IMG/VR virus record: IMGVR_UViG_3300020417_000958
Span: 1-45,939 of that record
Strand: one strand, 5' to 3'
Length of the DNA: 45,939 bases
Source: a virus
The notes beneath the pieces were generated by a model that ran no database searches, was not told the DNA's origin, and was given only the letters and a program-made list of their open reading frames with translations. Position numbers and translations under genes: made by a program. Within the stretch, counting starts at the first letter, position 1. Each line of letters opens with the position of its first letter. This document shows, in pieces, positions 9,101-41,191 of the stretch.

Positions 9101-12100
9101 ACTAATATGCCAATACCTGAATTTTTATCTAAAGTTTATGGTGTGCGTATACCATCACAAGATAAACACTCTGCATTAAACTTAAGACTTGTTGATTTTA
9201 TGCCAAGTTATATGGGATCTACAGGAGTTTTTGCAAGAGAAATACTAGAAAGATCAGGTGCGGATTTTGATATAGACAAGATATATCTACACATGAAAGA
9301 GTTATATGAGAAAAATGGTAAATTTTATGAGTATGGTAAACAAGGCTTTGATGATTATATACAATATGTAGGTGACGCTATCAATTCAGGTAAACCTAAT
9401 GCTTTCAAAGATGCTTTTGAAAAATTCATGTTGGGTAGCAAAAAGAGTGATAAGATCAAACAAAAAGATGCAATTACAGGTGCACTAACTCAATTAAATT
9501 TACCTACTACAAAAGAAGAATTTGACAAGTATGAAGGGCCTAGTTTATACCCTGGTGCAAATAACAACAAAGACTTAGAGTTGAAGTATGCTATGTTAGG
9601 TAATAAAAAAATAACAGAATCATTAACTCCAGGAGGAACTCCTATTATTGCAGAAGAAGCTGGCTTAGATAGATTAAAAAGTGTTAGAGCATACATGGAA
9701 GAGGTTGTTCCTGAGTGGGCACAAAAAACTGCAGATACTACTTTAGATGTAAACTCTTTATTAGGTAAGTTTTATTCTTATAAAAATAATAAAGAAGGAG
9801 CTGGTAATATTGGTTTAGCTGTAAAACCAAATTTAGCATATTCATTGCTAAGAGAGTATGATATAAAATTAAATGGGCTTGCAAAGTTTGTAATAAATAA
9901 AAAGACTGCAACAAAATTTGAAACTATGGTTGATAATAAGCAGGGTGGAAAAGATAGAATAGCTTCAGTTTTTGATGAGCTTGTATCTGCAAATGTTGAT
10001 AATGCAAAAGAAAGACTTGTTTCTAAATTAGGTTTGAATAGAAATAATCTACCCATTGCTGGAGCAGCTTTAGCTGTAGGAATACCTATTGATGATGTTG
10101 TTTTATTTATAAACTCACCTATATTTGAAGAGGATACTTATCAAGATAAAAGAGATCCTTATCTATTTGAGCAAAGTGGTATACCTAAAATTACAACAAC
10201 AGAAATATTAAAGACATATAGTCCTGAATTTAATACTCTTCCTAAAAACCAACAAGCTAAGATAAAAAGAAATATGATTGATATTAGACAAAGGCTAGGA
10301 GCTATATCTGCACAAGCAAGAAACTTAGGAGTTCTTATGAATTATATGAGAGGATTTGGTAAAGACTTTGGTGCATCTTTATATCAGGACAGACAAATAG
10401 CACAGTTATTTGGTGGTACTAAAAAAGCGGCTAAAGCATCATTTATAATTAATGCTGCAGAGGATAGTTTTATTGTGTCTAACTTAAAGCTTGCTGAAAG
10501 GTTTTCTGAAATAGCAGAAAAAATATTACCAAGATTTAATTCAGAATTTAAAAAACATTTTCTACAACGTATTTTACCTCAGATGTCTCCATTTGTAGTA
10601 GAGAATAAAGGTGAGTATGTAGATCAAGTAGCTTTAGATTATTTAGCATATAGATTAATATCATTATATAAAGATAATCTTAATAATAGCCCAAGTAAAT
10701 TAGCAGGTACTTTAAGTAATTCTATGATTTATGGTAATAGTAATACAGAAAGTGTTATTGATGTAGTAGAAAGGTTGAGAAAAACTGATCCAGAAAAAAG
10801 TAATTATTTTTTAAATAACTTTGTACAAACAGTAAGTTATGATAATGAACAAAACAATGATGGTCTAAATAAAGCTGTGACAAATACATTTGCTAGATTA
10901 ACTGATAATCAAAAGATAAAAGTTCAAAATGGGTTTGCTATGTTATATGGTAATTCTTCAACAAGAACAGACGCAGTTAAGTTATTACATTATATAATAG
11001 TAAAAGACGGATTACAATTTAACACAGCTTCTTTATTGCAAGCACTAAGTCCTTATATTATAGAAACATTCTTAGATAAAACAACAAATATTTTTACTAA
11101 TCCTGTTTCAGCATTTGATGCTGTACAATTTGCTAGAAATTATTTTAAAAGTGCTAGTGCACAAAAATATTTACAGCAAGAGTTTGATAGTTTAGCTAAA
11201 CCTTTTGGTAAGAAATCAATAAGAGATGGAGTAGAGTACAGACTAGTGCCTAGAGAAAAAGTTTTAGTAGAAACAAGTGAAGCTATGATACCTGATGAGA
11301 TAAGATTATACATAAGAATTAATAACCAATTATTTGAGTACGACAATATGGATTATGATGGTGTTGCAGATGAAGTACCATATAAATTAATACCTATAGA
11401 AGGAAGTATAGCACAGAATCCAATAGGGTTTATGTTTAATGATGCTAACTTTAGTAGACCAGCATATAAAGATATTGCTAAATATAACAAAACAACAGAT
11501 CAAATTAGTTTAGAAGAATTCCAAGAAATGCAAGGGATTACTAAAGCATTTGAAACAGGATCAAATGTTACAGCTAATGAAAACGGATATACAATAGAAG
11601 ATGCAATAGGTATATCAGAAAAAGCTATTGAAGGATATACTATTCCAACAGAACAAACAGAAGTTGTCAAAGAAACTCCAAAAAAAGGAGATATTGTTAC
11701 TCTAGAATTTTATTTTGAAAAAGAAAATAAAATAACACCTGTTAAAGTAACAATAGAAAATATTACAGAGATTGAACAAGGAGGGGCTATAATTACGGAC
11801 AATAAAGGTAATGTTATAAAAGAAGAACCAGGGACTATAGAATATGAATTAACTTTAGTATCTAATAAAGGTAGAAAATATGAAGTTACTGTTGGTAGAG
11901 ATGGTAATATAACTCAATTTTTAGGGAAAAATAATAAATTGAAAATAGGTACAGATAATTATATTCCAGAATTTGATTTAAAATCTCAACCAACCCAACA
12001 AAATTTTGAACAAGCAGATTTAGAAGAGCAAAAGCCTATGGCTAAGTCTAGAGTTAAAGAGTTATTAAAAGCAAGTCAAGAGGTTAAAGACAATAAAAAA

Positions 12101-12261: not shown

Positions 12262-15200
12262 ATGGCATGTTTTAATAAAAATACAGCAGAATATAAAGCT
12301 TTACAAGAAGAGTTTAAAAAAGACAGTATTGTTGATGCTAAGATAATGGCATGGCAAAGAGTTAATAACAGTGATGTTATACCATCTGTAGATCAAGTAC
12401 AGCAAGGACAGAGAGATAAACAAGTAATGTACTCTACAACAAAAAGAAATTTTTCAGCAGCTCTTATTGGTAATCTAAACAGATTAAAATTAGTTACTAA
12501 AAAATATAAAGGTTCACATTATGTAAATACAACAAATGGTGAACAATTTTTTGCTAGTCAAGAAATACTAAAAGATAATATAAGAAAAATATATAAGTAT
12601 CTTGCTGTTAATAACATACCATCAGATGCTATTAATATTAATAGAACAACTAAGTCAGCAATAATTACTGTTAATGAAGATATGTTTTCAGTGGCTGATG
12701 TAATACCAGCTAAAAGACCAGAGAATACAACAAGAACTTTAAGTGTTGTTGAACATCTAGAAAGACTGTTTCCACAAGTTACAGTTAATATTGCAACTGT
12801 ATCTGAAGCAAAAGAATATTATGATAGTTTACCTAAAGATGAAAAAGCAAAAATAAAATTTGCTGACATAAAGTCTTATTACCAAAATGGTAAAGCTGTA
12901 CTAATACAAGGTAGGGTAACAGATGAAACTGCAATAGAAGAACTTTTACATCCTTTTGTAGATGCAGCTAAAACAGAAAATCCAGAGTTGTTTGATAATT
13001 TATTAAAAGAATCTAAGCTTAATTTTCCTGTATTAAAGCAAGAGATAGATGATGCTTATAGTAATAAGAATGGATTTAAACAAGTACACAGAGATCTAGA
13101 ACTTGTTACACAAGCTATGACAAGACATTTTCAAAAAGAATATGAAGACAAACCTACTAAATCATTTCTTGATAGAATAGTAGATTTTCTAAGATGGTTT
13201 GGTAATCTTATTAATGATTTACATAAGTATGTAACAGAAAAGCAAAAGCCTGTGTTTCAGCTTAGTCAAGCAAATCCAAACTTAAAATTATCTGAGATAG
13301 CACAAATACTTAATACAACTGATATAAGTTTTAAGTTTAACTATAAAGTAGATAATGTAGTTAGATATTCTTTATCTAATAAAAAACAAAAGATTGTAAA
13401 TAGGGTAAAGGATGTAATGAGTGCAAACCCATTACAGAAAAAAATTATTGACAAGTTGTTTCATATAGCTGATAAACAAGCAGATGAAATAGACTCACTG
13501 TCAGCAAACCCAGAGGATATTACTTATGGTAATAGCATAGTAATACTAAATAAAGAGCAAGGCAAGCATGAATATGTAGACATATCAACAGGAGAGATAT
13601 ACACATCTGCAACAACAGCAATTAATGGTGTAATGCAAAATAGAGAAGAAGTAGCAGAAAGCTTAGCTGTTGGTAATGACTTTGACTCAGTAGTAGAAGC
13701 AGTTATAACAGGAGTACCTGTAGATGAATTATTTGCAGAATTACAAGCTGTACCAGAAAGCAAGCTTAAAAATGATAAAGCTAGATTAGAAAGTATATAT
13801 GATGATATACATCAAAAAACTATGCTTGCATATATGGATGGTACTGTGTTTATCCCACAAGTAGTGGTATATGATAGAGCTACTAAGATAGCTGGTACAG
13901 CAGATATAGTAGGTATTACAACAAAAGGAGAGATAAGAATTATAGATCTCAAGACAAGTAGAACTGCTTATATTAGTAAAAACAAAGAACAATATAAAAG
14001 AGAGTGGGATCTAGCAGATGATAGTAAGCTAAAACAAGCTGGTGTTAATAGGATGTCTACATTAGCTAAACATGGATTACAAGTAAACATGTACAGAAGA
14101 ATGTTTGAGAATATGGGATACAAAGTAGAGCAAGGTCCTTATTCTGCACAAACTTTCCATATTCATGTAGACATGGAAGGTAAAGGTAAAAATACAAAAT
14201 GGAAAGGGACGTATAGATTTGATGGTTTAATGCAGCATCCTCCTTTACCAAACAATTCAAATTTAGATAAACTTATACCAAAAAACCCTGATATAATAGC
14301 AAAAGAAAAAATTGAATTTGAAACTAAAAATTCTGATACATATAATCCTTTTAATACACCTGATGAATCTTTACCAGATGATGAGTTTGCAAGTCCAATT
14401 CAAGAAGACACAAGATATAAAGGTATTAAATCTGCTGTAGAAAATTATCAAAAACATTTAGTAGACAGGGCCAAAGCATTAGAACAATACAAAAAACAAT
14501 TGTTTGTAGATAAAACTAATCCAGAAGCATTAGATTATATTAACAACACTTTAGCTACAATACTAGTATCACTTGACCCATTAAGAACAGACCAGGCTGT
14601 AGTACAAAGCAAAGTATTTGTTGATTTAATTAGGATGGCTATAAAAGAAATGGATACTTTTATTGCTTATGTTAATGATCCTAAGAATTTACAAGATAAA
14701 AACTTTATAACATACATAAACAATTTTGATAATTTTGCAAAGTCTTATGAAGCACTAAATGATTTAGGTGCTGATTTATTAAATAAAAATGAATTAAGAT
14801 TAATAAATCAACTACAAACAAAATTAAAAAAAGTAAGAGGTACAAATTATTTACCAGGATTAATAGATACAGCATTAGAAGATTGGGCGGTACAAACTAT
14901 AAAACAAGAAAGCAACCTAGAATATACAGAGGCTGAGCTAAGACAACTAATTAAAAAGGCTGAGGATACAAATTTCTTAGATCTTAATACAAGAGATATG
15001 GCTACTTCACCTGATACAATACTTGCAGTTATAGATAAGCTTTATAAAAGATCAAAAATAAGAGCTCAAATAGTACAAAGAGAAGAAGTTCAAACTATAA
15101 GAACTCTTGGTAATAGACTTACTAGACTTGCAGGGACAAATGATCCTACAATAGTCTTCAAAAACCTGCATGAAGATCCTATTAATAAACCTGGAAAACT

Positions 15201-17973
15201 TGTAGAAAAATTTGGTAAACAATATAATGACAAAGCAGAAGAGTTACGTAATGAATTATTTCATGCAAACGGAGATTGGAAAAGATATATTCAAACAGAA
15301 GATATTAATACACCATTAACACAAGAAGAAATACAGTATAATATAGAACTTTGGAATGCAAAACAAGCTAATGCTGCATTTATGAGAGCTGAAACAAAAG
15401 ATGAAAATAATAATGCTGTAGACGGAGAGTTTCATAGATATACAGATGAATTTAAAAAAATAAGAGATAAGTATCAAATATTTATACCTGTAGGAAATCA
15501 TGGGTTCTGGAGAATGAGAAGTGGTATAAGCCAAGAACAAACAGAAGAGTATTATTTAAAATATTATGATACTAGAGAAGTTGAAACAATGATAATGCTT
15601 GAAGGAAAACCTACAGGTAAAACAAGATTTCAAACACTTAGATTTCCTAAGAAAAAGTTTGTTGAGAAAAGAGAGGTCTCATCCAATGGTGTTAACATGC
15701 TTAGTGATAAATATGTAAAACTAATGAATCCAACAACTGAATTAGGCAGAGCAGAAAAAGATTTTTATGAAGCATACATGGAACTCAGTGATAAGATGAT
15801 GAAAAAATTACCATTAGATGTAAGAGATAGGATGCTTGGGTTTGCACCACTTGTAAAAGGTAAGATGGTAAAGGATGCAAAAAGCAAAGGCATGTTTGGT
15901 CTTGTAAGAGATATAACTAAATACTTTGGAGATGAAGTTAAGGATGTTTTAACAGAAACCACATCATTCAGACGTGTACAAACAGATGAATATGGTAACA
16001 TGATTGACTCAATACCAATAATGTTTGTAGGTAGACCAAGAACACAAAAAGCTGTTCAAGAAATAAATGATAAACTAGAAGAGCTTGAAGCACGAAGAGT
16101 AGCACGTAAAGTAACAGGAGAAGTATATCAAAAACAAAAATCTTTTCTTGAATCAGAAAAAAGAGCAATATTAGGCAAACCTGAAGCATCAGAAATAAGC
16201 ATGGATCTTGCTGACAGTATTATTAAATTCAGCAGTATGGCTACGATTTATGAACAGATGACTGATATTGAAGATACGCTACTTGGTTTAAAGAAAATTG
16301 TTGACAGAAGACAATATGTAGATACTAAAAAAGGTATTGTTAGATATGCAAGAAATTTAAAAGATACAATTGTAGGTAAGAAAGGTAGTAAATCACAAGA
16401 AGAAGCTAATACAAAAAAGAGATTATCAGCTTGGTTTAGTATGGTGTTTTATAATAGTGATGAAATGACTAGAAGTATAGCTGACAAACTTACAAGTTCA
16501 TTAATAGGTATTTCTTCTTTAACATATGTAGCATTTAACGCTATTGGTAACTTAAACAACTTAGCAATAGCATCTGTAAATAATGCAATAGAAGGTATGG
16601 GACAAAGATTTTTTAGTCTTGACTCTTATAAAAGAGCAAACAAAGCATTTTATGCAGATGGTGGAGGTGTAACAGTAGCTTTATTTAGTAGGTTAGCATA
16701 TAAAACATCTAGTAAGAATGGAAGATATGATCCTGATTTAGCAATGAATAAATGGGAAGCTATGGCTCAGCATATGTTTATGATGGATGCTTATGCTGAC
16801 ATACGTGAAGCAACGCAAGGTCAAGGTGCTATGACAGAAGGTTTCTTAACTATACCTGGATTTTATGAAAAATTTAAAAGATTTGGTTATTCATTACAGG
16901 ATGCAGCAGAATATAAAGTACAAACTACTGTTGGTATGGCAATACTAATGGATACGTTGATGGAAAATAGCAAAACAGGAGAGCAGTTAAGTTTTTATGA
17001 TGCTCATGATTATGATGCTAAAACTCAGACAGTAAAATTAAAAGAAGGCTTTGATACTATTATAACTAAAACTGTTAATAAAAAAGAGATAAAGAAATTA
17101 TATGATATAAATGAAAGAGCTGATTTAAGAAATAATATTAGAGAAGCAAACAAGCAGATACACGGTAACTATGCTAGAGAAGACAGGGTTTTACTGCAAA
17201 GACATAATATTGGTCAGTTATTATTCCAGTTTAAAAAATGGTTAGCTCCTGCTATTAGAGCAAGATTCCAAGGTGAATACTATGATGAAAACTTAGGTTG
17301 GATGGAAGGAAGATACGTATCTACTTACAAGTTTTTAGGATATCTAGCAGGGCAATTAAAAAACCTAAACTTCAAAGCTATGAACTTTAAATCCTACAGA
17401 GATGAAGTGTTTGGTAAAAAGTCTGGCTCAACAGAGCAAGAGAATGAAAGAATACAAAACAAAATTTTTGGTATTAAAAGAACAGCTGCTGATCTAGCAA
17501 TGATTATAGCAACTTGGGGTATATACCAATTACTACTTACTGGATTTGAAGATGAAGATGATGACATGGATCCAACTTTAAGGAAACTAAGAAACTTAGC
17601 TATATACCAAGCAAATAGAACATACAAAGAACTTTCTATGTTTATGCCTATCCTTCCGGGTGCATATACACAAATGTCACAGTTTACTAGTGATCCTATA
17701 GCATCTACAAGAAACCTAGGGCAAATAGGAGAAATGTTAAGTACAGGTTTATATACGGGATATAGATTTGGATATGCTGCAATTGATGGTTTAGATGGTG
17801 TAACAGAAAGAGAATACAGAGAACTGATGAAAGACTCTGATTTATTCTATCAATATAAGCCTAGAAAAGGTAAACTTAAGTTCTGGAAAGAAGCAGCAGA
17901 TATTATACCAGGTATATATACAATACAAAAGTTTAATGGATTTTTAAGAAGACAAGACTTTTATATAGACTAG
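12262..17973 (+). CDS. Second giant virion-type protein with PD-(D/E)XK nuclease domain (1,903 aa)
   Basis: This gene starts 2 nt after the RNA polymerase gene and is surely co-transcribed with it. In crAss-like phages several giant genes lie together and their products enter the virion. A nuclease domain of the Cas4/RecB type is visible around residues 510-660: G545-T-A-D548, then D562-L-K564-T, then Q607-x-x-x-Y611. Nearer the N-terminus EELLHPF (226-232) sits in a context resembling a zincin helix but lacks the first His of HExxH, so it may be a decayed peptidase. Long Lys/Glu-rich helical stretches fill the middle. Hydrophobic segments lie near 1415-1435 and 1745-1760, the latter followed by an acidic run. 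The role of a nuclease here is unknown; host DNA attack at entry or genome processing are guesses. Confidence 0.72.
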   Translation: MACFNKNTAEYKALQEEFKKDSIVDAKIMAWQRVNNSDVIPSVDQVQQGQRDKQVMYSTTKRNFSAALIGNLNRLKLVTKKYKGSHYVNTTNGEQFFASQEILKDNIRKIYKYLAVNNIPSDAININRTTKSAIITVNEDMFSVADVIPAKRPENTTRTLSVVEHLERLFPQVTVNIATVSEAKEYYDSLPKDEKAKIKFADIKSYYQNGKAVLIQGRVTDETAIEELLHPFVDAAKTENPELFDNLLKESKLNFPVLKQEIDDAYSNKNGFKQVHRDLELVTQAMTRHFQKEYEDKPTKSFLDRIVDFLRWFGNLINDLHKYVTEKQKPVFQLSQANPNLKLSEIAQILNTTDISFKFNYKVDNVVRYSLSNKKQKIVNRVKDVMSANPLQKKIIDKLFHIADKQADEIDSLSANPEDITYGNSIVILNKEQGKHEYVDISTGEIYTSATTAINGVMQNREEVAESLAVGNDFDSVVEAVITGVPVDELFAELQAVPESKLKNDKARLESIYDDIHQKTMLAYMDGTVFIPQVVVYDRATKIAGTADIVGITTKGEIRIIDLKTSRTAYISKNKEQYKREWDLADDSKLKQAGVNRMSTLAKHGLQVNMYRRMFENMGYKVEQGPYSAQTFHIHVDMEGKGKNTKWKGTYRFDGLMQHPPLPNNSNLDKLIPKNPDIIAKEKIEFETKNSDTYNPFNTPDESLPDDEFASPIQEDTRYKGIKSAVENYQKHLVDRAKALEQYKKQLFVDKTNPEALDYINNTLATILVSLDPLRTDQAVVQSKVFVDLIRMAIKEMDTFIAYVNDPKNLQDKNFITYINNFDNFAKSYEALNDLGADLLNKNELRLINQLQTKLKKVRGTNYLPGLIDTALEDWAVQTIKQESNLEYTEAELRQLIKKAEDTNFLDLNTRDMATSPDTILAVIDKLYKRSKIRAQIVQREEVQTIRTLGNRLTRLAGTNDPTIVFKNLHEDPINKPGKLVEKFGKQYNDKAEELRNELFHANGDWKRYIQTEDINTPLTQEEIQYNIELWNAKQANAAFMRAETKDENNNAVDGEFHRYTDEFKKIRDKYQIFIPVGNHGFWRMRSGISQEQTEEYYLKYYDTREVETMIMLEGKPTGKTRFQTLRFPKKKFVEKREVSSNGVNMLSDKYVKLMNPTTELGRAEKDFYEAYMELSDKMMKKLPLDVRDRMLGFAPLVKGKMVKDAKSKGMFGLVRDITKYFGDEVKDVLTETTSFRRVQTDEYGNMIDSIPIMFVGRPRTQKAVQEINDKLEELEARRVARKVTGEVYQKQKSFLESEKRAILGKPEASEISMDLADSIIKFSSMATIYEQMTDIEDTLLGLKKIVDRRQYVDTKKGIVRYARNLKDTIVGKKGSKSQEEANTKKRLSAWFSMVFYNSDEMTRSIADKLTSSLIGISSLTYVAFNAIGNLNNLAIASVNNAIEGMGQRFFSLDSYKRANKAFYADGGGVTVALFSRLAYKTSSKNGRYDPDLAMNKWEAMAQHMFMMDAYADIREATQGQGAMTEGFLTIPGFYEKFKRFGYSLQDAAEYKVQTTVGMAILMDTLMENSKTGEQLSFYDAHDYDAKTQTVKLKEGFDTIITKTVNKKEIKKLYDINERADLRNNIREANKQIHGNYAREDRVLLQRHNIGQLLFQFKKWLAPAIRARFQGEYYDENLGWMEGRYVSTYKFLGYLAGQLKNLNFKAMNFKSYRDEVFGKKSGSTEQENERIQNKIFGIKRTAADLAMIIATWGIYQLLLTGFEDEDDDMDPTLRKLRNLAIYQANRTYKELSMFMPILPGAYTQMSQFTSDPIASTRNLGQIGEMLSTGLYTGYRFGYAAIDGLDGVTEREYRELMKDSDLFYQYKPRKGKLKFWKEAADIIPGIYTIQKFNGFLRRQDFYID

Positions 17974-19382: not shown

Positions 19383-19781
19383 TTAAAACTGAGAAGCTGT
19401 TTTTGCTTCTTCTATTGCTTCATTCAACTCTATTAGAGTTACAGGACATTCTAAATCTAGTCCCGCTTTCCAAACAACTTCTTTAAATCCATCTTTAAAA
19501 AGAATAATTGTTGGAGCCATACGCACCTTGTATTTCTTTTTGGCTTCTGGTGCTTTGCTAATATCTACTCTGACATAAGGTATATCTACAGAATTCCAAT
19601 CAGAGAAAGCATTTGCATCATTAAACTTTGCCCAAAATTCTACTACAATAAGTGGCTCATTATCTGCATATGCACTTTTACCACTTATTATTTCACTTAT
19701 GTTTGAGTCATCTGCCCAGTCTTGAGACAATGCCATTGTAGGCAGTAGTATCATTACTAGTAATATAAAATTTTTTAACAT
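19383..19781 (-). CDS. Exported thioredoxin-fold protein lacking the CxxC
   Basis: A 132-residue protein with a signal peptide (cleavage likely after ALS at residue 19) and a thioredoxin-like core. The strand IVVEFWA (45-51), the loop where WCGPC should lie, and M-A-P90-T with the conserved cis-proline all match the fold. The two redox cysteines are replaced by Asn54 and Asn57, so disulphide exchange is not expected. Such proteins usually bind peptides or act as structural adaptors. It begins 2 nt from the TM/coiled-coil gene at 19784 and precedes two lipoproteins in the same direction. A periplasmic binding or chaperone role in the envelope cassette is inferred. Confidence 0.65.
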   Translation of the reverse strand: MLKNFILLVMILLPTMALSQDWADDSNISEIISGKSAYADNEPLIVVEFWAKFNDANAFSDWNSVDIPYVRVDISKAPEAKKKYKVRMAPTIILFKDGFKEVVWKAGLDLECPVTLIELNEAIEEAKTASQF

Positions 19782-21738: not shown

Positions 21739-23364
21739 TTATCCCTCACAACTTGCACATTCTAGTATATTTCTGGAGAATGCTTGAGCAGAGCTCTGAC
21801 TAAACTGATAATACAAAGTCTTAACCCCTAGTTCCCAAGCACTTAGATATAATTGATTTATATCTTTTGCAGGAACGCTTGGATGTATCATTAAATTAAG
21901 TGACTGAGATTGATCTATATACTTTTGTCTTTGAGATGCTTGTATAATTATTTCTTTTGGTGAGATTTCTATGAATGATTTAAACACAGCTTTACTTGGA
22001 AAATCTAGATGCTGAACTGACCCATCTTTCTTTAGTATACTTTCCCAAGTATCATCATTATCTAAATCATATTTTTTTAACTCTTCTTTTAAGAAAGGAT
22101 TTTTATAAATGGTTTTAGTTTTAGCTAAATCTTTAATAAAGTAATTAGATTTTATTGGCTCAATACCCATAGATACTGCACCATGTATAAAACTACTTGA
22201 TTTTGTGGGAGCTATAGCCATCAATGTAGTGTTTGCATATCCTTCTCTAATACACTCATAACCTTTTTCATTAGCTAAATACTTAGATGCATTTTGTGCT
22301 GTTTCATTTAAATATTTAAATATCTGAGAGTTTAAACTTTTAGCTTCCATTGACTCAAACTCAACAAGTTTAGATTGTAATAAACTATGGTATCCTAACA
22401 CACCTAAACCTATAGCTCTGTGTTTCTTAGCAAATGTATAAGCTCTTTTAAGGCCAGCTTTTACTTCAGCTTTTTTAATAAACTCATCCATAACAGCATT
22501 TAAAAAGAATACATATGTTTCTACAGCATCTGTTTTAATAATATCATCCCAGTGTAATAAATTTATAGATCCTAAACAGCACACAAATGAATTGTAACTA
22601 TCTGTTGGAAGTTGTATTTCTGAACATAAATTAGATGCAGTTATATCTAAACCTAGATCTTTATAAGGAGAATTGTTATTGCTGTTATCTTTAAACATTA
22701 TATAAGGAAAACCAAACTCATTTCTTCTTTGTATTACTTTGGCCCACAGCTGACGTTTTTCATTATCACCTTCTTTCATTTCATTTAACCATTGGTCAGT
22801 TACTGTAATACCATATTGTAAGTTTTGTATTGGATTTCCCTCAGTTCCAATATCTAAAAAGTCTGCGGCATCAGGATGTTCAAGTGGTAAATATACAGCA
22901 CAAGCACCTCTTCTTGCCTCAGATTGTTTACATACATCTACAACAGTATCATAAATTTTAGCATAATGAACAGGACCATCAGCCAGACCTCCGGTTGATA
23001 TAGTAGATCCTCTTGGTCTAATGTTGCCTAAGTAAGCGCTTGTACCACCACCATATTTAGACATCATGCCTATTTCTCTGCCTGCGTTTAGTATACTATC
23101 TAAGTTATCATCTATGTTAGATCCATAACAACTTATAGGTAATCCTTTTTGTTTACCAAAGTTTATCCACACTGGTGTAGAAAGACTATAATAACCTAAT
23201 GACATATAATGCTCAAACTTTTGTGCAAAGCCTGGCATTTGTAAATACTTTTCTGCTGTATTTGCTATATCTTTAATCCTTTGTTCTGGTTCTTCTGATA
23301 TATATCCTCTTGATAAAAACTTGCGGCTATCTTCATTAAGCCAATAATACTTACTAAACTCCAT
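21739..23364 (-). CDS. nrdA: Class I ribonucleoside-diphosphate reductase, large subunit
   Basis: Reduces ribonucleotides to deoxyribonucleotides with the radical supplied by NrdB. The expected catalytic residues are visible: P-I-S-C79-Y-G (first redox Cys), N245-L-C247-S-E249 (thiyl radical Cys and Glu), C262/C263 in the partner redox position, a PTKSSS phosphate loop, the tyrosine pair Y518-Y519 that relays the radical, and the C-terminal E-C536-A-S-C539 reductant shuttle. At 541 residues it is much shorter than cellular NrdA (about 760). It begins directly at the catalytic region and has no N-terminal ATP-cone, so dATP feedback control is probably absent. It is coupled to nrdB by a one-base TAATG overlap. 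Confidence 0.95.
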   Translation of the reverse strand: MEFSKYYWLNEDSRKFLSRGYISEEPEQRIKDIANTAEKYLQMPGFAQKFEHYMSLGYYSLSTPVWINFGKQKGLPISCYGSNIDDNLDSILNAGREIGMMSKYGGGTSAYLGNIRPRGSTISTGGLADGPVHYAKIYDTVVDVCKQSEARRGACAVYLPLEHPDAADFLDIGTEGNPIQNLQYGITVTDQWLNEMKEGDNEKRQLWAKVIQRRNEFGFPYIMFKDNSNNNSPYKDLGLDITASNLCSEIQLPTDSYNSFVCCLGSINLLHWDDIIKTDAVETYVFFLNAVMDEFIKKAEVKAGLKRAYTFAKKHRAIGLGVLGYHSLLQSKLVEFESMEAKSLNSQIFKYLNETAQNASKYLANEKGYECIREGYANTTLMAIAPTKSSSFIHGAVSMGIEPIKSNYFIKDLAKTKTIYKNPFLKEELKKYDLDNDDTWESILKKDGSVQHLDFPSKAVFKSFIEISPKEIIIQASQRQKYIDQSQSLNLMIHPSVPAKDINQLYLSAWELGVKTLYYQFSQSSAQAFSRNILECASCEG

Positions 23365-24344
23365 TAAAATAAATCATTTACTGTTATACTTTTACTCTTT
23401 TTATTATAATCAATTTGTTTCTTATAAAAGAAGTCTCCCTCTTTTGTAGATTTCATTTCTACCTCAAACCACTTGGTTTCTTTTAACATATCTTTATCTA
23501 CGTCAAACATAGGTGACATTTTAATTTTCTTAAGTGAATTATTAAATCTGTTTTTGATAAAGTTTTTTATAACATCTTTTGGTAAAAAAGTTAATTCACC
23601 TGATTCAAAAATCCAGTCAAGTATATCACACTCAGCAATATAAGCTTTATTGCATGCAGAGTAAATTAAATTATCAAAGTCTTCATCAAACCATTCTGGG
23701 TTTTCTTTTTTTATAATATTAATAATTTCAGCACCAAAGTTACCATGTATATCTTCTTCTTTACTTGTAGCTTCAACCACATTAGAAATACCTTTTAGTA
23801 TACTTCTCTCTTTATTAAAAGACATCATTATCAAGAACTGGCTAAATAAGCTTACGTGTTCTATAAATAAAGAAAACAATAGTACAGACTTAGTATACAT
23901 TTTATCATCTCTACTTCTTGAACCATCTAAATATTTCTTTAAGTATTTTATTCTTCCTTTGATAGCAGGTATCTCTACTACATTTTTAAATTCATTTTCT
24001 AAACCTAGTATTCTTAATAGTCTTGCATATGCATCTTTATGTCTAACCTCAGACTCTGCAAATGTAAAACCTACATCTCCTATCTCTGTAATAGGCATAC
24101 GCTTATACAGGTCACCCCAAAAAGTTTTTACATTAACTTCTATTTGTGCAATTGCAAGCATAGTTTTTTTAATTACATCACGTTCTTGATCTGTAATATT
24201 TACTTTAAAGTCTTGTATGTCTTCAGTAAAGTTAAATTCTGTGTCTATCCAATATGAATGACGGATAGCATCTTTATAAGCAAGTAATTGAGGATACTCA
24301 TAAGGGAGTATATTTGTTCTAGGTTGAAAAATGTTTTTATTCAT
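23364..24344 (-). CDS. nrdB: Class I ribonucleotide reductase, small (radical-generating) subunit
   Basis: A ferritin-like di-metal protein that makes the tyrosyl radical used by NrdA. Metal ligands and the radical Tyr follow the class Ia pattern: E69, E99-x-x-H102-x-x-x-Y106 (the same spacing as E115/H118/Y122 in E. coli), E162 in F-I-E-H, and E197-x-x-H200. The C-terminal tail, ending in a hydrophobic D-L-F, should dock to the large subunit. Length (326 aa) is normal. It is the first gene of the reductase pair and lies downstream of a minus-strand terminator at 24371-24405, so it probably has its own start or depends on read-through. With nrdA it supplies dNTPs for phage replication. Confidence 0.95.
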   Translation of the reverse strand: MNKNIFQPRTNILPYEYPQLLAYKDAIRHSYWIDTEFNFTEDIQDFKVNITDQERDVIKKTMLAIAQIEVNVKTFWGDLYKRMPITEIGDVGFTFAESEVRHKDAYARLLRILGLENEFKNVVEIPAIKGRIKYLKKYLDGSRSRDDKMYTKSVLLFSLFIEHVSLFSQFLIMMSFNKERSILKGISNVVEATSKEEDIHGNFGAEIINIIKKENPEWFDEDFDNLIYSACNKAYIAECDILDWIFESGELTFLPKDVIKNFIKNRFNNSLKKIKMSPMFDVDKDMLKETKWFEVEMKSTKEGDFFYKKQIDYNKKSKSITVNDLF

Positions 24345-34954: not shown

Positions 34955-35938
34955 CTATAAGTTAACCCTTCTTACTAAGAATTCATAGGGTAAACTAAAG
35001 TTTTTAGTACTAAAATGGTGTTTTGCAGCCTCTAAAGCGTTAAATAAATCATCCATCCAGCTTGTCATAGAATCAATAGATACATTAAATATATAGATTT
35101 GATCATATGAATCAATTACTATAAATCTAAATCTTATTATGTATTCTTGCTTGTCTTCTGGTAGATTTTCATATACTAACTTAGAATAAACTGCAGCCTG
35201 TAACCAGTAATTATAGTACTCTACTGTGTCAGCAAAATCTGTTATACTTTTTGACGTAGTTTTAAGGTCATATATAGTAACTTCTTTTGTGTCATCATTA
35301 ATTTCATAAAAGTCAACATAGCCGTGTAATCCAAAATCATAATCTTTAAGCTCACATTTTAAATAAGCTTCTGCATGTGTTTGGATTGGATCTAATTCAA
35401 AGTCTGATTGCTTTTTTGTTAAGGCTTCTTTAACCTCATCATTAGCATTAAGCAGCTCTACTCTATCTTTACATTTGTTTAATGTATCAACATCAATAAC
35501 ATTCTTAATATCATTTATTATAAAATGCCAATAGTCTGCATTATCCTGCGTTCTTATCTTTGCAAGTCTTTGCTCATCTTTCTTGAGGCTTTGATACAGG
35601 TTAATCTCTTTAAGAGAATCTAATATCACAAAGTCTTCTACTTTATCAAGCTTTTTTGAATCAGTGTACTGCAGCATATTATGCAGTACTTTCTTAACAC
35701 TATCACTAGGAGTTTTCCCAGGTGCTATTTTAAACTTTTCTTCTAACTTATCAGGTTCAAATAAAAGGCAGTGTATAACACTACCTTCTATAAGATGCTT
35801 ATCCATCCTCACTTCTTTTTCTTGTAAGATATAATCTTTATAAAATAAAGCCGGTGAGAATAGTAACCTGTTTAATGATGAATAACTAAAGTTAAAGTCC
35901 TTCTTAAAGAATTCTTCTTCTTTTACTTTATCTATCAT
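34955..35938 (-). CDS. PD-(D/E)XK exonuclease (Cas4/RecB/YqaJ-type)
   Basis: A 327-residue nuclease. Core motifs: E51-G52-S-V-I-H56 (GxxxH near the N-terminus), G-Y-V-D209-F, Y-D224-L-K226-T-T, and Q247-A-A-V-Y251 (the QxxxY helix). This matches the RecB-like exonucleases of phages that trim DNA ends for recombination. No Cys cluster for a 4Fe-4S centre is visible, unlike Cas4. The ATG overlaps the stop of the upstream 42-residue TM gene as ATGA, and the gene lies downstream of the MoxR/VWA run. Confidence 0.8.
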   Translation of the reverse strand: MIDKVKEEEFFKKDFNFSYSSLNRLLFSPALFYKDYILQEKEVRMDKHLIEGSVIHCLLFEPDKLEEKFKIAPGKTPSDSVKKVLHNMLQYTDSKKLDKVEDFVILDSLKEINLYQSLKKDEQRLAKIRTQDNADYWHFIINDIKNVIDVDTLNKCKDRVELLNANDEVKEALTKKQSDFELDPIQTHAEAYLKCELKDYDFGLHGYVDFYEINDDTKEVTIYDLKTTSKSITDFADTVEYYNYWLQAAVYSKLVYENLPEDKQEYIIRFRFIVIDSYDQIYIFNVSIDSMTSWMDDLFNALEAAKHHFSTKNFSLPYEFLVRRVNL

Positions 35939-36063
35939 TGTTTTATAATCATTAAAATTAATAATATGAAGCAGCCTACCATACTAAAAAATGCACCTTT
36001 TGCATTACTTATATACTGTTGCTTACTTCTTCCTTGTCTATATTTGATATCATTATCAGTCAT
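35935..36063 (-). CDS. 42-residue single-TM protein
   Basis: From ATG 36063 to TGA 35935, with a polar, basic N-terminal half and one hydrophobic helix (residues about 25-40, with C-F-I-L-L-I-L-M-I-I). It overlaps the coiled-coil gene by 8 nt and the exonuclease gene by ATGA, so it is firmly embedded in the operon. Role unknown; it could tether a partner to the membrane. Confidence 0.55.
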   Translation of the reverse strand: MTDNDIKYRQGRSKQQYISNAKGAFFSMVGCFILLILMIIKQ

Positions 36064-36184
36064 AATCTGAAAGTTTTTGTTGTAATTTTTGTATTCTTTC
36101 TTTAATCTCCTGAGTCTGAACTTTTCTCATTTTTAATTTAATAATCTCATCTATTATCTCCTGTTTATTAAATAGTTTTTCCAT
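36056..36184 (-). CDS. 42-residue coiled-coil protein
   Basis: ATG 36184 lies 1 nt after the stop of the 401-residue gene. The whole product is a charged helix with heptad-like leucines/isoleucines (L-F-N-K-Q-E-I-I-D-E-I-I, then E-R-I-Q-K-L-Q-Q-K-L). Too small for a catalytic domain; a dimerising adaptor or regulator is plausible. Confidence 0.55.
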   Translation of the reverse strand: MEKLFNKQEIIDEIIKLKMRKVQTQEIKERIQKLQQKLSDYD

Positions 36185-36185
36185 C

Positions 36186-37391
36186 TCAGAAAGGTAGGTC
36201 ATCAAATCCATCTGGCTTAGTTAATTCTTCTATAATTTCCTCACCAGATACCGGCTTCTTGACTGCACTGTCAAAGCCGTGATTTAATTTAATTGACTCA
36301 ATAGGTATATTAAATACAAATGACTTAGAACTTCTCTCTTCACGTGGTATACCAATACCCGTACTTACAAGAACTTTACTATGAATATTATTTCTGATTT
36401 TCAACCATACCCATTCTGTTAATGAATCTTCTAATGCAAGCTCTGCAACTAGATCATTGTAGACATGAATTTGATGTGGATTTGTATTTCTAGGATCAAA
36501 GTTATGCATTCTTTCTCTTAATGCTTTTACATTAACTGTATTCCAATTATCTGCATATCTAATATTATCCCATGTAAATATATACATATATGCCACTTTA
36601 TCTAAACATTTCTCTATATTACAATTAGCTAGCATTTCTAATGCCATTGCTTTAGCAGCACTATCAGAAGATCTCAACATTTGCATTGTAGTATCTACCT
36701 CATCTTCTGTTATAACATGAGCATCTTCATTACAAATTTTATTAAGGCATTTATCTAAAACTAAATTATGCTTTCTCACATTATTCCAGTGATTAACATT
36801 TCTGTTTTCTAATATAACACTACTAGAATTACCAAGATCACTGCTAGCTTCTCTTTTTACTTTATCCCATTGCTGTCTGAGTTTGTCATAATCTCTAGTC
36901 CCACCATAATAGTATCCAGTTTTAATACAAATTCTATCATTTGCATTTAACTTTTCATACAGGGACTTTATATTATCAACAAACTGTTGGTCAGCTATTT
37001 TAGGATATTGCTCTACAACACTTATAAAATCTGCAAGATGGTCTACGGTATGATAATTATACCAAGACGTGTCTAATAATGATTCTAAAAATTTGTTAGA
37101 TACAATAGAATAGTCTGCTTTATCCGGGTCTCTTACAACTTTTACATTGTATTTTTCCTTCAAGGTATCTACCTTCATTCTAGGTAAAGATAACTTTGGA
37201 AATCTATATAATTTTTTGCCTTGGATTTCTATATCCTCAGGCTCTTTTACAATATCTAGAGTTACAAAGTCTGAAGTCTTTTGTGACCAGTGTGTTTTGT
37301 TTCCAATCCAATAACCAACGTTATTTACTTTACCACTTAGTTTATCTCCAGCATCATTGCACTCTATATCTAATAAGTATGCTTTATTCAT
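36186..37391 (-). CDS. Unknown protein with SSB-like C-terminal tip, paralog of 37384-38400 product
   Basis: A 401-residue protein, no family recognised. It shares a layout with the preceding gene's product: R-D-P-D-K-A-D-Y against T-D-L-D-V-A-D-V-I-I-T near residue 90-110, and V-I-T-E-D-E-V-D, then M-Q-M-L-R-S-S-D against V-L-T-Q-E-M-L-S, then M-A-Q-L-D-G-S-D near residue 225-250. The C-terminus is D-G-F-D-D-L-P-F, the same style of acidic, Phe-ended tip by which SSB recruits DNA-repair enzymes. It is downstream of the MoxR AAA+ gene. I infer a DNA-associated scaffold or a substrate of the AAA+/VWA pair. Confidence 0.55.
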   Translation of the reverse strand: MNKAYLLDIECNDAGDKLSGKVNNVGYWIGNKTHWSQKTSDFVTLDIVKEPEDIEIQGKKLYRFPKLSLPRMKVDTLKEKYNVKVVRDPDKADYSIVSNKFLESLLDTSWYNYHTVDHLADFISVVEQYPKIADQQFVDNIKSLYEKLNANDRICIKTGYYYGGTRDYDKLRQQWDKVKREASSDLGNSSSVILENRNVNHWNNVRKHNLVLDKCLNKICNEDAHVITEDEVDTTMQMLRSSDSAAKAMALEMLANCNIEKCLDKVAYMYIFTWDNIRYADNWNTVNVKALRERMHNFDPRNTNPHQIHVYNDLVAELALEDSLTEWVWLKIRNNIHSKVLVSTGIGIPREERSSKSFVFNIPIESIKLNHGFDSAVKKPVSGEEIIEELTKPDGFDDLPF

Positions 37392-38400
37392 TTTTTAAAA
37401 ATTTTTGATATTCAGGTTTAACTTTTACATTAAATACATACAGATCTCTATTTTGAATAGTAATCTGTTCTCTACATATAGGTTCTAAGTATCTGAAATT
37501 TATTGAATTTAATAAATTTTTCTCTTGTAACCAAATAATCATTTGTTCTGCACTAAAATCATAAAATGTCTCCATGTCAGATTTATTGTACCAATATTGC
37601 AAGTCTTTATTTCTTGATGTGTAACTCAAGTCATAACCATGTGTTTGTGCTAATTTCCACAATAAATGATAATTTGTTTTATGATCAATTGTAGGAAGTA
37701 TCTTATATGCTAATTCCTTATCTTCATCACTGCCGTCTAGTTGAGCCATCAACATAGAGAGCATTTCTTGAGTTAGTACTTGTTTTGTTGCTGATTCATT
37801 CATAGCAACACTTACTGACACAGTATCCATTCCTGCATCTATCTTAAATGCAAGCTCTAATGCAAGGCCTGTAATATAATCCATATCATATATACTATCC
37901 TTATCATCATCATCTAAATGCCAGTGTTGACCAAATTTATCTGAGTCCTTATCATATTGATACAATAAAGATTCTTCAAGATTAGTATGACTTGTATGCA
38001 CTGCATAGTAGTTCCATAATTTTGCTAGCAAAACTTTTGTACTGATATTATTACCATTTTCAAAGTTATCTTCTATTTTATCATGTGTAATAATAACATC
38101 TGCTACATCTAAATCTGTAGTTACTGTTATTTTATGCTCTTTTAGACAAGACTTAAGTCTGTCCATTGGCATGGGACAGTTTGGAACAACAAATGCTTTT
38201 TTATATCCTTTACCAGTTAATGTATCTGATACAGGTTTTGTAATTTTATAATGTAATTCTGCTCTTAATGTTGGATTTTGCAACAAATAGACGGGTTGAT
38301 ACCCACCATATGCAGACACTAGATGTATTTTACTAGTGTCCGCTATATTATAGGTATCTAAAACATCTTGTGAGACAGTTTTAAATATGTATTTTGCCAT
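37384..38400 (-). CDS. Unknown protein, paralog of 36186-37391 product
   Basis: A 338-residue protein between the MoxR-type ATPase gene (1-nt TAATG overlap) and its paralog (8-nt overlap). The N-terminal 130 residues look alpha/beta, and the middle has an acidic W-H-L-D-D-D-D-K-D-S stretch. The region near residues 205-245 shares the V-x-T-x-E, then M-x-x-L-x-x-S-D pattern and a following helical repeat with the paralog. It lacks the acidic Phe-ended tip of the paralog. Function unknown, but such direct coupling to an AAA+ gene suggests it is a partner or client. Confidence 0.5.
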   Translation of the reverse strand: MAKYIFKTVSQDVLDTYNIADTSKIHLVSAYGGYQPVYLLQNPTLRAELHYKITKPVSDTLTGKGYKKAFVVPNCPMPMDRLKSCLKEHKITVTTDLDVADVIITHDKIEDNFENGNNISTKVLLAKLWNYYAVHTSHTNLEESLLYQYDKDSDKFGQHWHLDDDDKDSIYDMDYITGLALELAFKIDAGMDTVSVSVAMNESATKQVLTQEMLSMLMAQLDGSDEDKELAYKILPTIDHKTNYHLLWKLAQTHGYDLSYTSRNKDLQYWYNKSDMETFYDFSAEQMIIWLQEKNLLNSINFRYLEPICREQITIQNRDLYVFNVKVKPEYQKFLKNE

Positions 38401-39677
38401 TATTTCATAGTCATTTTAATAATTTCTGGTTTCATCATAAGCTTACTATACTTCTTTTTATTACCATTATAGATAGTTCTAACAATCAAATACTTTAGGT
38501 CATCAGTAAAGTAATCACCTGTACATAGTATTTCTACTCTATCATTTATCTTTTGTGTAATAGTATTTTCCTTAGAATATACTACAGCATAGTTAGCAAA
38601 TCTTGTTGCCAGTGTTGATGCAATGTCTGCACGATAAGCATCTCCATCTCCAATACACCCTTTTAACTCACCAAGTATATAATCTTGGTTATCATGAGTC
38701 AATAGATCCATTGGTGTTACAAGCTTATCTAATTTATTATTAATAAATGTAGTAAACATTGAGGCAAATGCATCTCCTACACTACCTTCACCAATCAATT
38801 GAATCAGTGATAGACTATCTTCAAACTTTTCAAAGCTTGATATAGAGTTAAAGAATGTAGTTATAGATCTTGCATTAGTCTCTTGTGTTACTAACTCTGG
38901 GTGTAGTAGTAGAAAGTTAATACATCTTGTATCAATTCCTGCTTCTTCTGCCCATCTAGCCCATACATTAACATCATATTTAAGATTAGCAGTAATATAT
39001 CTAGTCTTTTGTGCTGAGTCAACACTATTAACCATATAGTCTCCATTATCTGGATTTGCTGTTAATATAATATGCCAATCATCTGGAAGAGTCCATGATA
39101 TATATTGTTGTCTATCAACCAACTCCATCACTGCTTGTATAAATCTCATATCAGCACGGTTCCAATCATCAAGTAGTAATATACCACCCTTCTTCTTATC
39201 AGCAATCCACTCTGGTGCACAATATGACATCCTGTTCTTGCCTGTCATTTTATATCCTTGCTTAAGATATTCTTGTACAGCAAGCTCATCAACCCACATT
39301 CCTACTTTTTTAGTTACAGTTTGTGTATTGAGATTAGCAAGGCTAGCACCACCTGCTCTTTGAGTAGCTGTTACCATATTAATACTATCACTATTAGTAT
39401 TTACTGGTATTTGTTTCTCTTTATACATTTGAAACTGACGTACAGGAAAACCTACAAGGTCACCTATCTCTTCTATCTGTGATAGATTTAGTTTAACAAA
39501 GTCAAGATCATTATCCTGTGCCAATTCTATCACTGTAGAGGTTTTACCAATACCAGACTCACCTAATATCTCTACTGATACAGGGTTCTTTCCTTGCTTT
39601 TTTAAGTATCTATTGTTTGTAATTATATGATTTACAAACCCTTTTAATTCATCAATATTTAAATTTACTTCTGCCAT
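38400..39677 (-). CDS. MoxR-type AAA+ ATPase
   Basis: A 425-residue ATPase. Walker A G39-E-S-G-I-G-K45-T46; Walker B L-L-L-D170-D171-W-N-R-A-D; sensor 1 N208 in L-T-A-N-P-D; and S-x-D-S-A-Q-K-T-R-Y with an Arg finger-like position. The insertions and the D-D-W-N-R-A-D style match MoxR-family ATPases, which work with VWA proteins to remodel or load metal into other proteins. The neighbour upstream (39684-40835) is such a VWA protein, 6 nt away, so an ATPase/VWA pair is very likely. Substrate unknown; the two coupled paralogs downstream are candidates. Confidence 0.8.
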   Translation of the reverse strand: MAEVNLNIDELKGFVNHIITNNRYLKKQGKNPVSVEILGESGIGKTSTVIELAQDNDLDFVKLNLSQIEEIGDLVGFPVRQFQMYKEKQIPVNTNSDSINMVTATQRAGGASLANLNTQTVTKKVGMWVDELAVQEYLKQGYKMTGKNRMSYCAPEWIADKKKGGILLLDDWNRADMRFIQAVMELVDRQQYISWTLPDDWHIILTANPDNGDYMVNSVDSAQKTRYITANLKYDVNVWARWAEEAGIDTRCINFLLLHPELVTQETNARSITTFFNSISSFEKFEDSLSLIQLIGEGSVGDAFASMFTTFINNKLDKLVTPMDLLTHDNQDYILGELKGCIGDGDAYRADIASTLATRFANYAVVYSKENTITQKINDRVEILCTGDYFTDDLKYLIVRTIYNGNKKKYSKLMMKPEIIKMTMK

Positions 39678-39683
39678 TTTATT

Positions 39684-40835
39684 TTAATTTAATTGTATTT
39701 TAAGTCCTGGTAATTCTTCATTGATACTACAGCTACTGCTATGAACCCATAATGTGTTCTTAGGACAGTTCTCTGGAATACCAGCTTCACCATCTGTTAA
39801 ATATATAAGTGCCGTGTAGTGTTTTTGATTATAGTGGTCTACTACAGGCTGAAAATCTGTACCACCTCTTCCTTTTATACCCCAATCTTTCTTAGGATTG
39901 TAGTCTTCAACGGAATTTATTTGTGTGTCACATTGAACTATTGTAATCTTATGACCTGTTTTGTGCATGTGATGTATTTCATTCATAAACTCCTTCAACT
40001 CTTCTGTTGAAACTGAGCCAGATGTATCTACACCAACACAAACATGATTTTTAGTTTTGATTTTAAGGCCAGGATTTTCACTATATCTTTTATTGTATTT
40101 ACGTCTTAACTTTTTAGTATATACAACACTAGATCTACCTACAAATCTTTTTAAATAACCTTTCCAATCAAACTTTGGAGGAGGCACATGCAATAATCTT
40201 TGGATTAATTCATAAAGTTCTCCTGGAATATTTCCTCTCCTTCTTTCTGTTTGCTGTGCAACCTCCTTGATCTGATGTTCAATTTGTTTTTCTATAAGTT
40301 TCTTTTCTGAGTCTGGTAATTCATCAAACTCATCCCAACACTTATGACAGTATTGGCTTTCACCATTCATTTCACCAAGTAACTTATCTAAACTTGGAGA
40401 ACTGCCGTCTTTTTGTGCTTGTTCAAGCTTATCATAATAATATTTAGTACCTTTTCTTTCCTCTAAGTTTAACTCTGGGAACATACTTAGTACTAAACCA
40501 CCATCTGGTAAGCATGAAGCTGATATATATTGATTTATTTCCAGATCTGCAGCTATATTAAATAACTTCTTATCTCTATATGAGTCACGCAGTATAAGGT
40601 GACCAAAGGATATATGCAATATCTCATGCTTAATCAATCCTTTTCTCTTATCTTCATTAAGTTCACTAAAATAATCTGGATTTATAGCAAGTTGTACACC
40701 TATACCGTGTTTACTTACACCTGCTGTAGGTATATTTTTTATGTATACTTTATTTAATCCAACTAAAAAGAGCCCGTAAAAGGGCTCCTCTAGTATTAAT
40801 GTTTTAGTGGCTTTTGATACTTGATCTTTTACCAT
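39684..40835 (-). CDS. VWA-like DUF2201-type metallopeptidase-like protein
   Basis: A 383-residue protein. The N-terminal part has the DUF2201 features P-F-Y-G (18-21), I-P-T-A-G (35-39), N-P-D-Y-F (52-56) and H70-E-I-L-H74-x-x-x-x-H79, a zincin-like site. The C-terminal part is a VWA domain with the MIDAS residues D270-T-S272-G-S274, T326 (G-G-T-D-F) and D348 (Y-L-T-D-G-E). It is the usual partner of MoxR ATPases. A perfect intrinsic-terminator hairpin is embedded in codons 16-24. It overlaps the upstream 120-residue gene by 7 nt. An active peptidase is possible but not shown. Confidence 0.8.
   Translation of the reverse strand: MVKDQVSKATKTLILEEPFYGLFLVGLNKVYIKNIPTAGVSKHGIGVQLAINPDYFSELNEDKRKGLIKHEILHISFGHLILRDSYRDKKLFNIAADLEINQYISASCLPDGGLVLSMFPELNLEERKGTKYYYDKLEQAQKDGSSPSLDKLLGEMNGESQYCHKCWDEFDELPDSEKKLIEKQIEHQIKEVAQQTERRRGNIPGELYELIQRLLHVPPPKFDWKGYLKRFVGRSSVVYTKKLRRKYNKRYSENPGLKIKTKNHVCVGVDTSGSVSTEELKEFMNEIHHMHKTGHKITIVQCDTQINSVEDYNPKKDWGIKGRGGTDFQPVVDHYNQKHYTALIYLTDGEAGIPENCPKNTLWVHSSSCSINEELPGLKIQLN
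40765..40787 (-). terminator. Terminator-like hairpin inside the VWA gene
   Basis: On the minus strand GAGCCC (40787-40782) pairs with GGGCTC (40775-40770), loop TTTTAC, then TTTTT (40769-40765). It overlaps the codons for E-P-F-Y-G-L-F about 48 nt into the gene. It could attenuate transcription of the MoxR/VWA run; the same bases also encode a conserved motif, so it may be chance. Confidence 0.4.
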
Positions 40836-41191
40836 TTAACTTTTATTTTAAAATTCTCTATAAATTCAAATGAGTTTATCTTCAACACATTTTCACTTAG
40901 TGTCCTTGTGAGAAAGTGTGTAAATACATCTTGTGCATTTTTATCCTTTTCTCTCAACATATTATACAAAGCTTTATAAGTAAACTCATCAGCCTGAGGC
41001 CAATTAATATGAGGAAATTCTTTTATATAATTTTCTCTTTGAGTTGTTACTAGTTCTTTGCCTAATAATAATATATAGACAGGATCCAAATCAAGGTTCT
41101 TAATATTAGAAACTGCAATATTAAAGTCTTCTTCTGTGCTTTTCAGCATTTGTAAAGTATTATCTAATTCTTGTATATTCATTTTAATCAT
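40829..41191 (-). CDS. Unknown helical protein (120 aa)
   Basis: No family recognised. Almost fully helical by composition, with L-D-N-T-L-Q-M-L-K-S, Y-I-L-L-L-G-K-E-L and a basic C-terminus F-K-I-K-V-K-W. Overlaps the DUF6915-like gene by 8 nt and the VWA gene by 7 nt, so it is translated with the MoxR/VWA pair and may be an adaptor for it. ATG 41191 is used; ATG 41182 would shorten it by three residues. Confidence 0.5.
   Translation of the reverse strand: MIKMNIQELDNTLQMLKSTEEDFNIAVSNIKNLDLDPVYILLLGKELVTTQRENYIKEFPHINWPQADEFTYKALYNMLREKDKNAQDVFTHFLTRTLSENVLKINSFEFIENFKIKVKW

Follow-up and report, generated by a model that had tools for sequence, protein, structure and literature searches.

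Gene organisation of the block

The window, by which we mean the whole stretch of DNA analysed here, is a viral contig of 45.9 kb. Between positions 34955 and 41191 it carries a block of genes that all lie on the minus strand. In the order of transcription these encode an upstream protein of 120 aa (40829..41191), a VWA protein of the DUF2201 type (39684..40835; 383 aa), a MoxR-type AAA+ ATPase (38400..39677), two paralogous proteins referred to here as A (37384..38400; 338 aa) and B (36186..37391; 401 aa), a short coiled-coil peptide (36056..36211), a 42-aa peptide with a single TM segment in its translation (35935..36063), and a PD-(D/E)XK nuclease resembling RecB and exonuclease VIII (34955..35938). 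Ahead of the block lie a DnaB-like fragment, Sak4, a primase-like gene and RusA, and 3' of the nuclease it continues with a 192-aa gene, a 137-aa gene and a DNA polymerase (PolB).

The genes of the window are closely packed, with a gap of 6 nt between VWA and MoxR and overlaps of 1 nt (MoxR/A), 8 nt (A/B), 7 nt (upstream 120-aa gene/VWA) and 4 nt (TM peptide/nuclease). Read from its first ATG, the coiled-coil peptide shares 26 nt with B; read from the third, it starts 1 nt past B. Across relatives, the spacing is tight between MoxR and A and mostly tight between A and B in most loci. The distance between VWA and MoxR is about 430 nt in loci L031, L029, L033, L037 and L045, against the usual 5-11 nt. 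The coordinates, spacing and family calls given in an earlier note on this DNA all hold when set against ORF coordinates, Pfam and PHROG; this includes its pairing, 6 nt apart, of a MoxR gene with a DUF2201/VWA gene bearing HExxH, both of which are real members of their families. A promoter scan of the block gave a signal at the level of the shuffled background, an Rfam search of the window returned no match, and the 120-aa upstream protein was without a match in Pfam or PHROG.

The carrier phage

A giant ORF at 110-12259 (4049 aa) contains the motif DFDID, which matches the DxDxD of the crAss-like RNA polymerase; a second giant ORF (12262-17973, 1903 aa) adjoins it. In tblastn, the RNA polymerase of the window matched that of crAss-like phages at E 3e-11 and found 96 records, mostly of crAss-like or uncultured phages. 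The best polymerase matches among sequenced phages are about 34% identical. Because its giant RNA polymerase is homologous to the crAss-like enzyme, the carrier is classed as a crAss-like phage, of a lineage that by this identity has no close cultured relative. The crAss-type structural block (MCP, portal, TerL, IHF, gene 75) was not identified in the window, and phrog_2, presumably TerL, matched none of seven related viral records.

The lineage is widespread, uncultured and mostly marine, and several of the related contigs are 113-118 kb in length. One contig binned in a Pseudomonadales MAG (L168, WLWP01000004.1) measures 114.7 kb, approximately a whole genome, and is a phage of this lineage; L169 and L170 (CAKZOX01...) are further phage contigs of the lineage among those binned with MAGs. 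The assignment of these three to Pseudomonadales and Campylobacteraceae bins is likely to reflect mis-binning, or else to hint at the host. Elsewhere in the window, adjacent genes at 21739-24344 resemble, by eye, both subunits of ribonucleotide reductase, and a thioredoxin-like secreted protein is encoded at 19383-19781.

Conservation of a four-gene unit

Six scans of IMG/VR and one of GTDB genome contigs yielded 149 loci distinct in A/B sequence. The order VWA-MoxR-A-B was present in 138 of them, the other 11 ending at a contig edge inside the module, and in each of the 149, wherever the contig goes on, A/B are accompanied by MoxR and MoxR by A. Such a count, with truncation accounting for every exception, puts the four-gene order far beyond chance; as the scans were seeded with the module's own proteins, this linkage and co-occurrence speak for one lineage. 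The survey of gene order in relatives that the earlier note had called for found the core four together. In every locus covering these genes, the module is flanked by Sak4/RusA on one side and RecB/PolB on the other, and the placement in a replication block, as first proposed, was confirmed by the presence of Sak4, primase, RusA, RecB and PolB around the module wherever covered. VWA, MoxR, A and B form a fixed four-gene unit within this replication/recombination block. Since the whole block is syntenic, gene order alone fails to single out these four genes.

The nuclease matched PDDEXK_1 at 36.7 bits (cut-off 22) and phrog_412, exonuclease VIII, at E 1e-17, and it is a conserved neighbour of the module. 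The suggestion that it forms part of a machine with MoxR and VWA was not upheld, as RusA, Sak4 and PolB are as syntenic as the nuclease, and its distances do not covary with those of VWA, MoxR, A or B (partial r -0.07 to 0.02). On sequence grounds it appears to be a separate gene of the replication block, with nothing tying it to the core four. The coiled-coil peptide, the TM peptide and the upstream 120-aa helical protein had been put forward as components as well. They are restricted to close kin, being found in 7, 3 and 15, respectively, of the 82 loci that had matches (the three loci of the TM peptide all come from one near-identical contig), and were placed outside the core, the coiled-coil peptide as a clade-specific passenger and the 120-aa protein as a clade-specific gene.

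Profile scans of eleven more remote phage regions carrying MoxR, VWA or both (Moorella phage, Alteromonas AD45, AR9, G, phiFa, N4, S-TIM5, Ettore, pv27, RaK2 and pYD6-A) detected no A/B-like protein, and the MoxR/VWA pairs of other phages lie in varied gene contexts. A tblastn search of 50,697 phage records with A, B and a B consensus returned nothing credible. The human-fecal MoxR/VWA contigs MT838754, MT837836 and MT836813 were considered as gut relatives and rejected, as profile scans found no A/B-like neighbours in them; MT838754 looks like a bacterial chromosome.

The VWA and MoxR proteins

The VWA protein consists of a zincin-like DUF2201_N domain (68.4 bits, cut-off 23.2), in which the HExxH at residues 70-74 is part of HExxHxxxxH, and a VWA domain (DUF2201, 63.0 bits, cut-off 26.4) with the MIDAS motif DTSGS, to which D270 belongs. 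Both domains being above cut-off and both HExxH and MIDAS being in place, it belongs with the DUF2201 metallopeptidase-VWA proteins. Among 126 distinct proteins of the clade, HExxHxxxxH occurs in all and the MIDAS motif D.SGS in 124. The VWA match ends at residue 367 of 383, and the protein is without the variable C-terminal effector domain. The VWA member of such pairs is present in several hundred sequenced phage records. The protein is labelled 'HNH endonuclease' in PHROG (members of phrog_1314) and in many GenBank/RefSeq records, a label that looks like a propagated error, given that Pfam finds the DUF2201 domains and no HNH match.

The ATPase matched the MoxR-like profile phrog_1297 at E 9e-35, whereas Pfam AAA_3 and AAA_5 matched below cut-off only. 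Its place among the AAA+ proteins follows from this profile together with the Walker A motif GESGIGKT, whose Lys is K45, the sensor 1 Asn (N208) and a conserved Arg (R226), all of which are invariant, and the closest solved structure by sequence is midasin (E 9e-7). The Walker B motif is present as LLLDDWNRA in the window, with Asp (D171) in place of the Glu of other phage MoxR proteins. This DDWN occurs in 121 of 122 distinct MoxR proteins of the clade, in contrast to DE or EE in 9/9 other MoxR proteins checked from phages and fecal contigs; the catalytic glutamate (DE) of Walker B is thus lacking in these 121 proteins. The change from Glu to Asp may, judging from the motif, mean slow or absent ATP turnover and a slow-cycling ring.

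In several loci these genes are interrupted. In L119 (4760-4993, 4041-4796), L142 (4549-5274), L139 and L192, insertions close to the Walker B codons divide MoxR; those of L119 and L142 contain ORFs for endonucleases of GIY-YIG type (family assigned by eye), and L119 also has a match to the group I intron family of Rfam (RF00028, 79.9 bits). The VWA gene is split just past the HExxH region in L123 (3354-4190), and also in L128 and L129, with an ORF for a LAGLIDADG-like endonuclease (by eye).

Kinship and predicted folds of A and B

BLASTP of A against B gave no signal. In profile comparison the two scored 40.3 (E 1.4e-4), against 13-18 for eight column-shuffled controls and 21 for the reversed control. 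A third copy, X, lies between them in tandem (A-X-B) in L119 (6863-7888); it was absent from both profiles and matched that of A at 30.0 bits and that of B at 104.7 bits. The paralogy of A and B that the earlier note had claimed is borne out by this score and by X. On these comparisons A and B are true paralogs, linked by an X of intermediate sequence.

The AF2 models of A and B had pLDDT values of 84 and 88, respectively. BRCT entries dominate the match list of the A model in VIA-align, with Z up to 7.0, and the B model matched the BRCT domain of PARP1 at Z 7.3 (2.4 Å over 74 residues); many BRCT rows stand in both lists, and all BRCT and ARM/HEAT matches of A and B have Z below 8. Prediction supports a common build, in which a BRCT-like domain (residues ~62-204 of A and ~55-222 of B), carrying a long insertion, is followed by an ARM/HEAT-like domain (~205-282 and ~224-301, respectively). 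The conserved C-terminus of A reads FRYLEPIVR...NRDLY, and the core of B LANCN...NWNTVNVK.

The BRCT idea had been noted from the sequence prior to any fold search. When whole records were searched with Pfam BRCT (PF00533), the sole match lay in gene A in five of eight viral records, the other three giving no match; in the window the only match of the record is at 37999-38196 in A (12.9 bits). A phage contig binned in a Pseudomonadales MAG also has its match in A. These matches always fall at the predicted BRCT-like domain and score 12-18 bits (best 18.2), below the curated cut-off of 21.3, and for this reason A and B are named BRCT-like and not members of the BRCT family. Over most of their length, A and B matched in BFVD only the same four phage proteins, among them one of the crAss-like ctYsL76 and two from a single podovirus record, ctz6O13. 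Among solved structures, profile searches with either protein found nothing, and a Pfam search, in which no direct VMAP profile was used, gave no VMAP, iSTAND, FtsH or beta-propeller match for either.

Evolutionary rates and co-evolution

Thirteen genes were compared by mean pairwise identity over 25 non-redundant loci. Identity was 0.895 for MoxR, 0.896 for Sak4, 0.833 for VWA, 0.641 for A and 0.401 for B, the lowest of the 13, which makes B the fastest evolving. Median dN/dS over 16 pairs was 0.08 (MoxR), 0.12 (VWA), 0.14 (RecB), 0.25 (A) and 0.43 (B); the ranking, with B highest and A third-highest of the 13 genes, is safer than the values, all well below 1, since some of the pairs are of near-identical genomes and synonymous distances in many cases approach saturation.

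After removal of background divergence, residual co-evolution was 0.52 for VWA-A, 0.35 for VWA-MoxR, 0.33 for MoxR-A and 0.29 for MoxR-B, and was not significant for A-B (r 0.12, p 0.19); with 36 comparisons the p values are indicative only. By this indicative measure, VWA, MoxR and A appear to co-evolve mutually beyond the background genes. The correlation of B with MoxR is weaker than that with the primase (0.58) or with the 192-aa gene (0.41).

Proposed role

MoxR/VWA pairs remodel partner proteins in bacteria. By analogy with NorQ/NorD, A and B would be the best candidates for adaptors or clients of MoxR/VWA. The reading that we prefer, with a probability of roughly one half, is that the four proteins make up an ATP-driven remodelling module in which A and B are dedicated adaptors or obligate substrates and the target lies in replication or recombination. 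MoxR would form a hexameric ring holding the VWA protein, as in NorQ/NorD; the MIDAS site and the zincin-like domain of the latter would engage A and B, which would bring the ring to replication or recombination nucleoprotein complexes of the phage, and ATP turnover would then remodel or release these complexes. That the engine is conserved while its two partners evolve fast agrees with variable clients for A and B. The replication/recombination target is favoured because the module sits among Sak4, RusA, RecB and PolB, a location that is only suggestive as a pointer to function. A narrower version, in which the paralogs are BRCT-ARM/HEAT adaptors steering MoxR/VWA to DNA ends, forks or replication proteins, is tentative and would be the less probable form.

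The alternative that survives best, though it is clearly improbable, is a chaperone of virion assembly or maturation, with MoxR/VWA folding or processing structural proteins and A/B being scaffolds or factors of tail or head assembly. An assembly role has been suggested for the MoxR-vWA/metallopeptidase pair of jumbo phages, with an archaeal two-tailed virus as precedent (PMC7824862), and the neighbours of the pair in cyanophage S-TIM5 include Hsp20 and genes with structural annotations; but the present module stands among replication genes in every locus covering them, and gp24/25 of N4 are transcribed in the middle phase and not late (PMC4193335).

We consider it unlikely, and somewhat more so, that A and B use their fast-evolving surfaces to bind variable proteins of the host (or its defence) and deliver these to MoxR/VWA, which would unfold or cleave them. 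The high dN/dS ranks of B and A would agree with such counter-defence or host takeover, as would the MoxR-vWA core with a third protein known from conflict systems (PMC7159879), yet the dN/dS values remain well under 1, every relative has the module at a fixed place in its replication block and not in a variable island, and PADLOC matches were weak and of sub-domains only. Equally doubtful is that A and B are ordinary fast-evolving replication accessories whose MoxR/VWA neighbours do something unrelated, for example inserting the cofactor of the phage ribonucleotide reductase: the block is collinear throughout, including genes that nobody ties to MoxR, insertion of metal cofactors is what NorQ/NorD and comparable pairs do (PMC9976466), and the window seems to encode both reductase subunits (21739-24344), but co-evolution above background is seen for VWA-A, MoxR-A and MoxR-B and not for RecB close by, and tight MoxR/A and mostly tight A/B spacing is kept in most loci.

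Comparison with known systems

The earlier note had suggested that the module may be a new machine. Phage MoxR/VWA pairs in themselves are already known: gp24/gp25 are listed core genes of N4-like phages (Schitoviridae) (PMC4193335), and a jumbo-phage pair of MoxR and vWA-metallopeptidase has been published with a proposed role in virion assembly (PMC7824862). These share with the present module an AAA+ MoxR and a zincin-plus-VWA protein in adjacent genes, but they have no detectable A/B nearby, carry DE and not DD in Walker B, and lie in varied contexts. In the literature searched, nothing was found that joins MoxR, phage and BRCT, or Flandersviridae and MoxR, and crAss-like genome papers made no mention of MoxR or VWA. 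That literature appears to contain no description of the obligate BRCT-like/ARM-HEAT-like paralog partners, of the change in Walker B or of a fixed place within the replication block of a crAss-like phage.

Among cellular systems, MoxR-vWA ternary operons, for which a role in conflict has been proposed, likewise combine a MoxR/vWA core with further dedicated protein(s) in one operon (PMC7159879). Their third component is VMAP, inactive STAND, FtsH or a beta-propeller and their vWA protein often has a C-terminal effector, whereas the module described here has two BRCT-like/ARM-HEAT-like paralogs and no effector. NorQ/NorD, CbbQ/CbbO and RavA/ViaA offer a model for the cooperation of a MoxR hexamer with a VWA adaptor; in NorQ/NorD one VWA protein docks on the hexamer and its MIDAS contacts the client (PMC9976466). 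They differ in being cellular enzyme-maturation systems without a paralogous pair of BRCT-like partners. The BRCT domains of LigA, RFC1, PARP1 and REV1 resemble the first domain of A and B in predicted fold, and that of A in sub-threshold Pfam matches; A and B differ from them in the long insertion, the fused ARM/HEAT-like helices and scores under the cut-off. If the proposed reading is true, BRCT-type domains would here serve in a phage replication module, an unusual place for them. The one-to-one coupling to two partners of predicted architecture gives a first handle on the role of phage MoxR/VWA, and makes the question of its target tractable as a four-protein reconstitution and pull-down.
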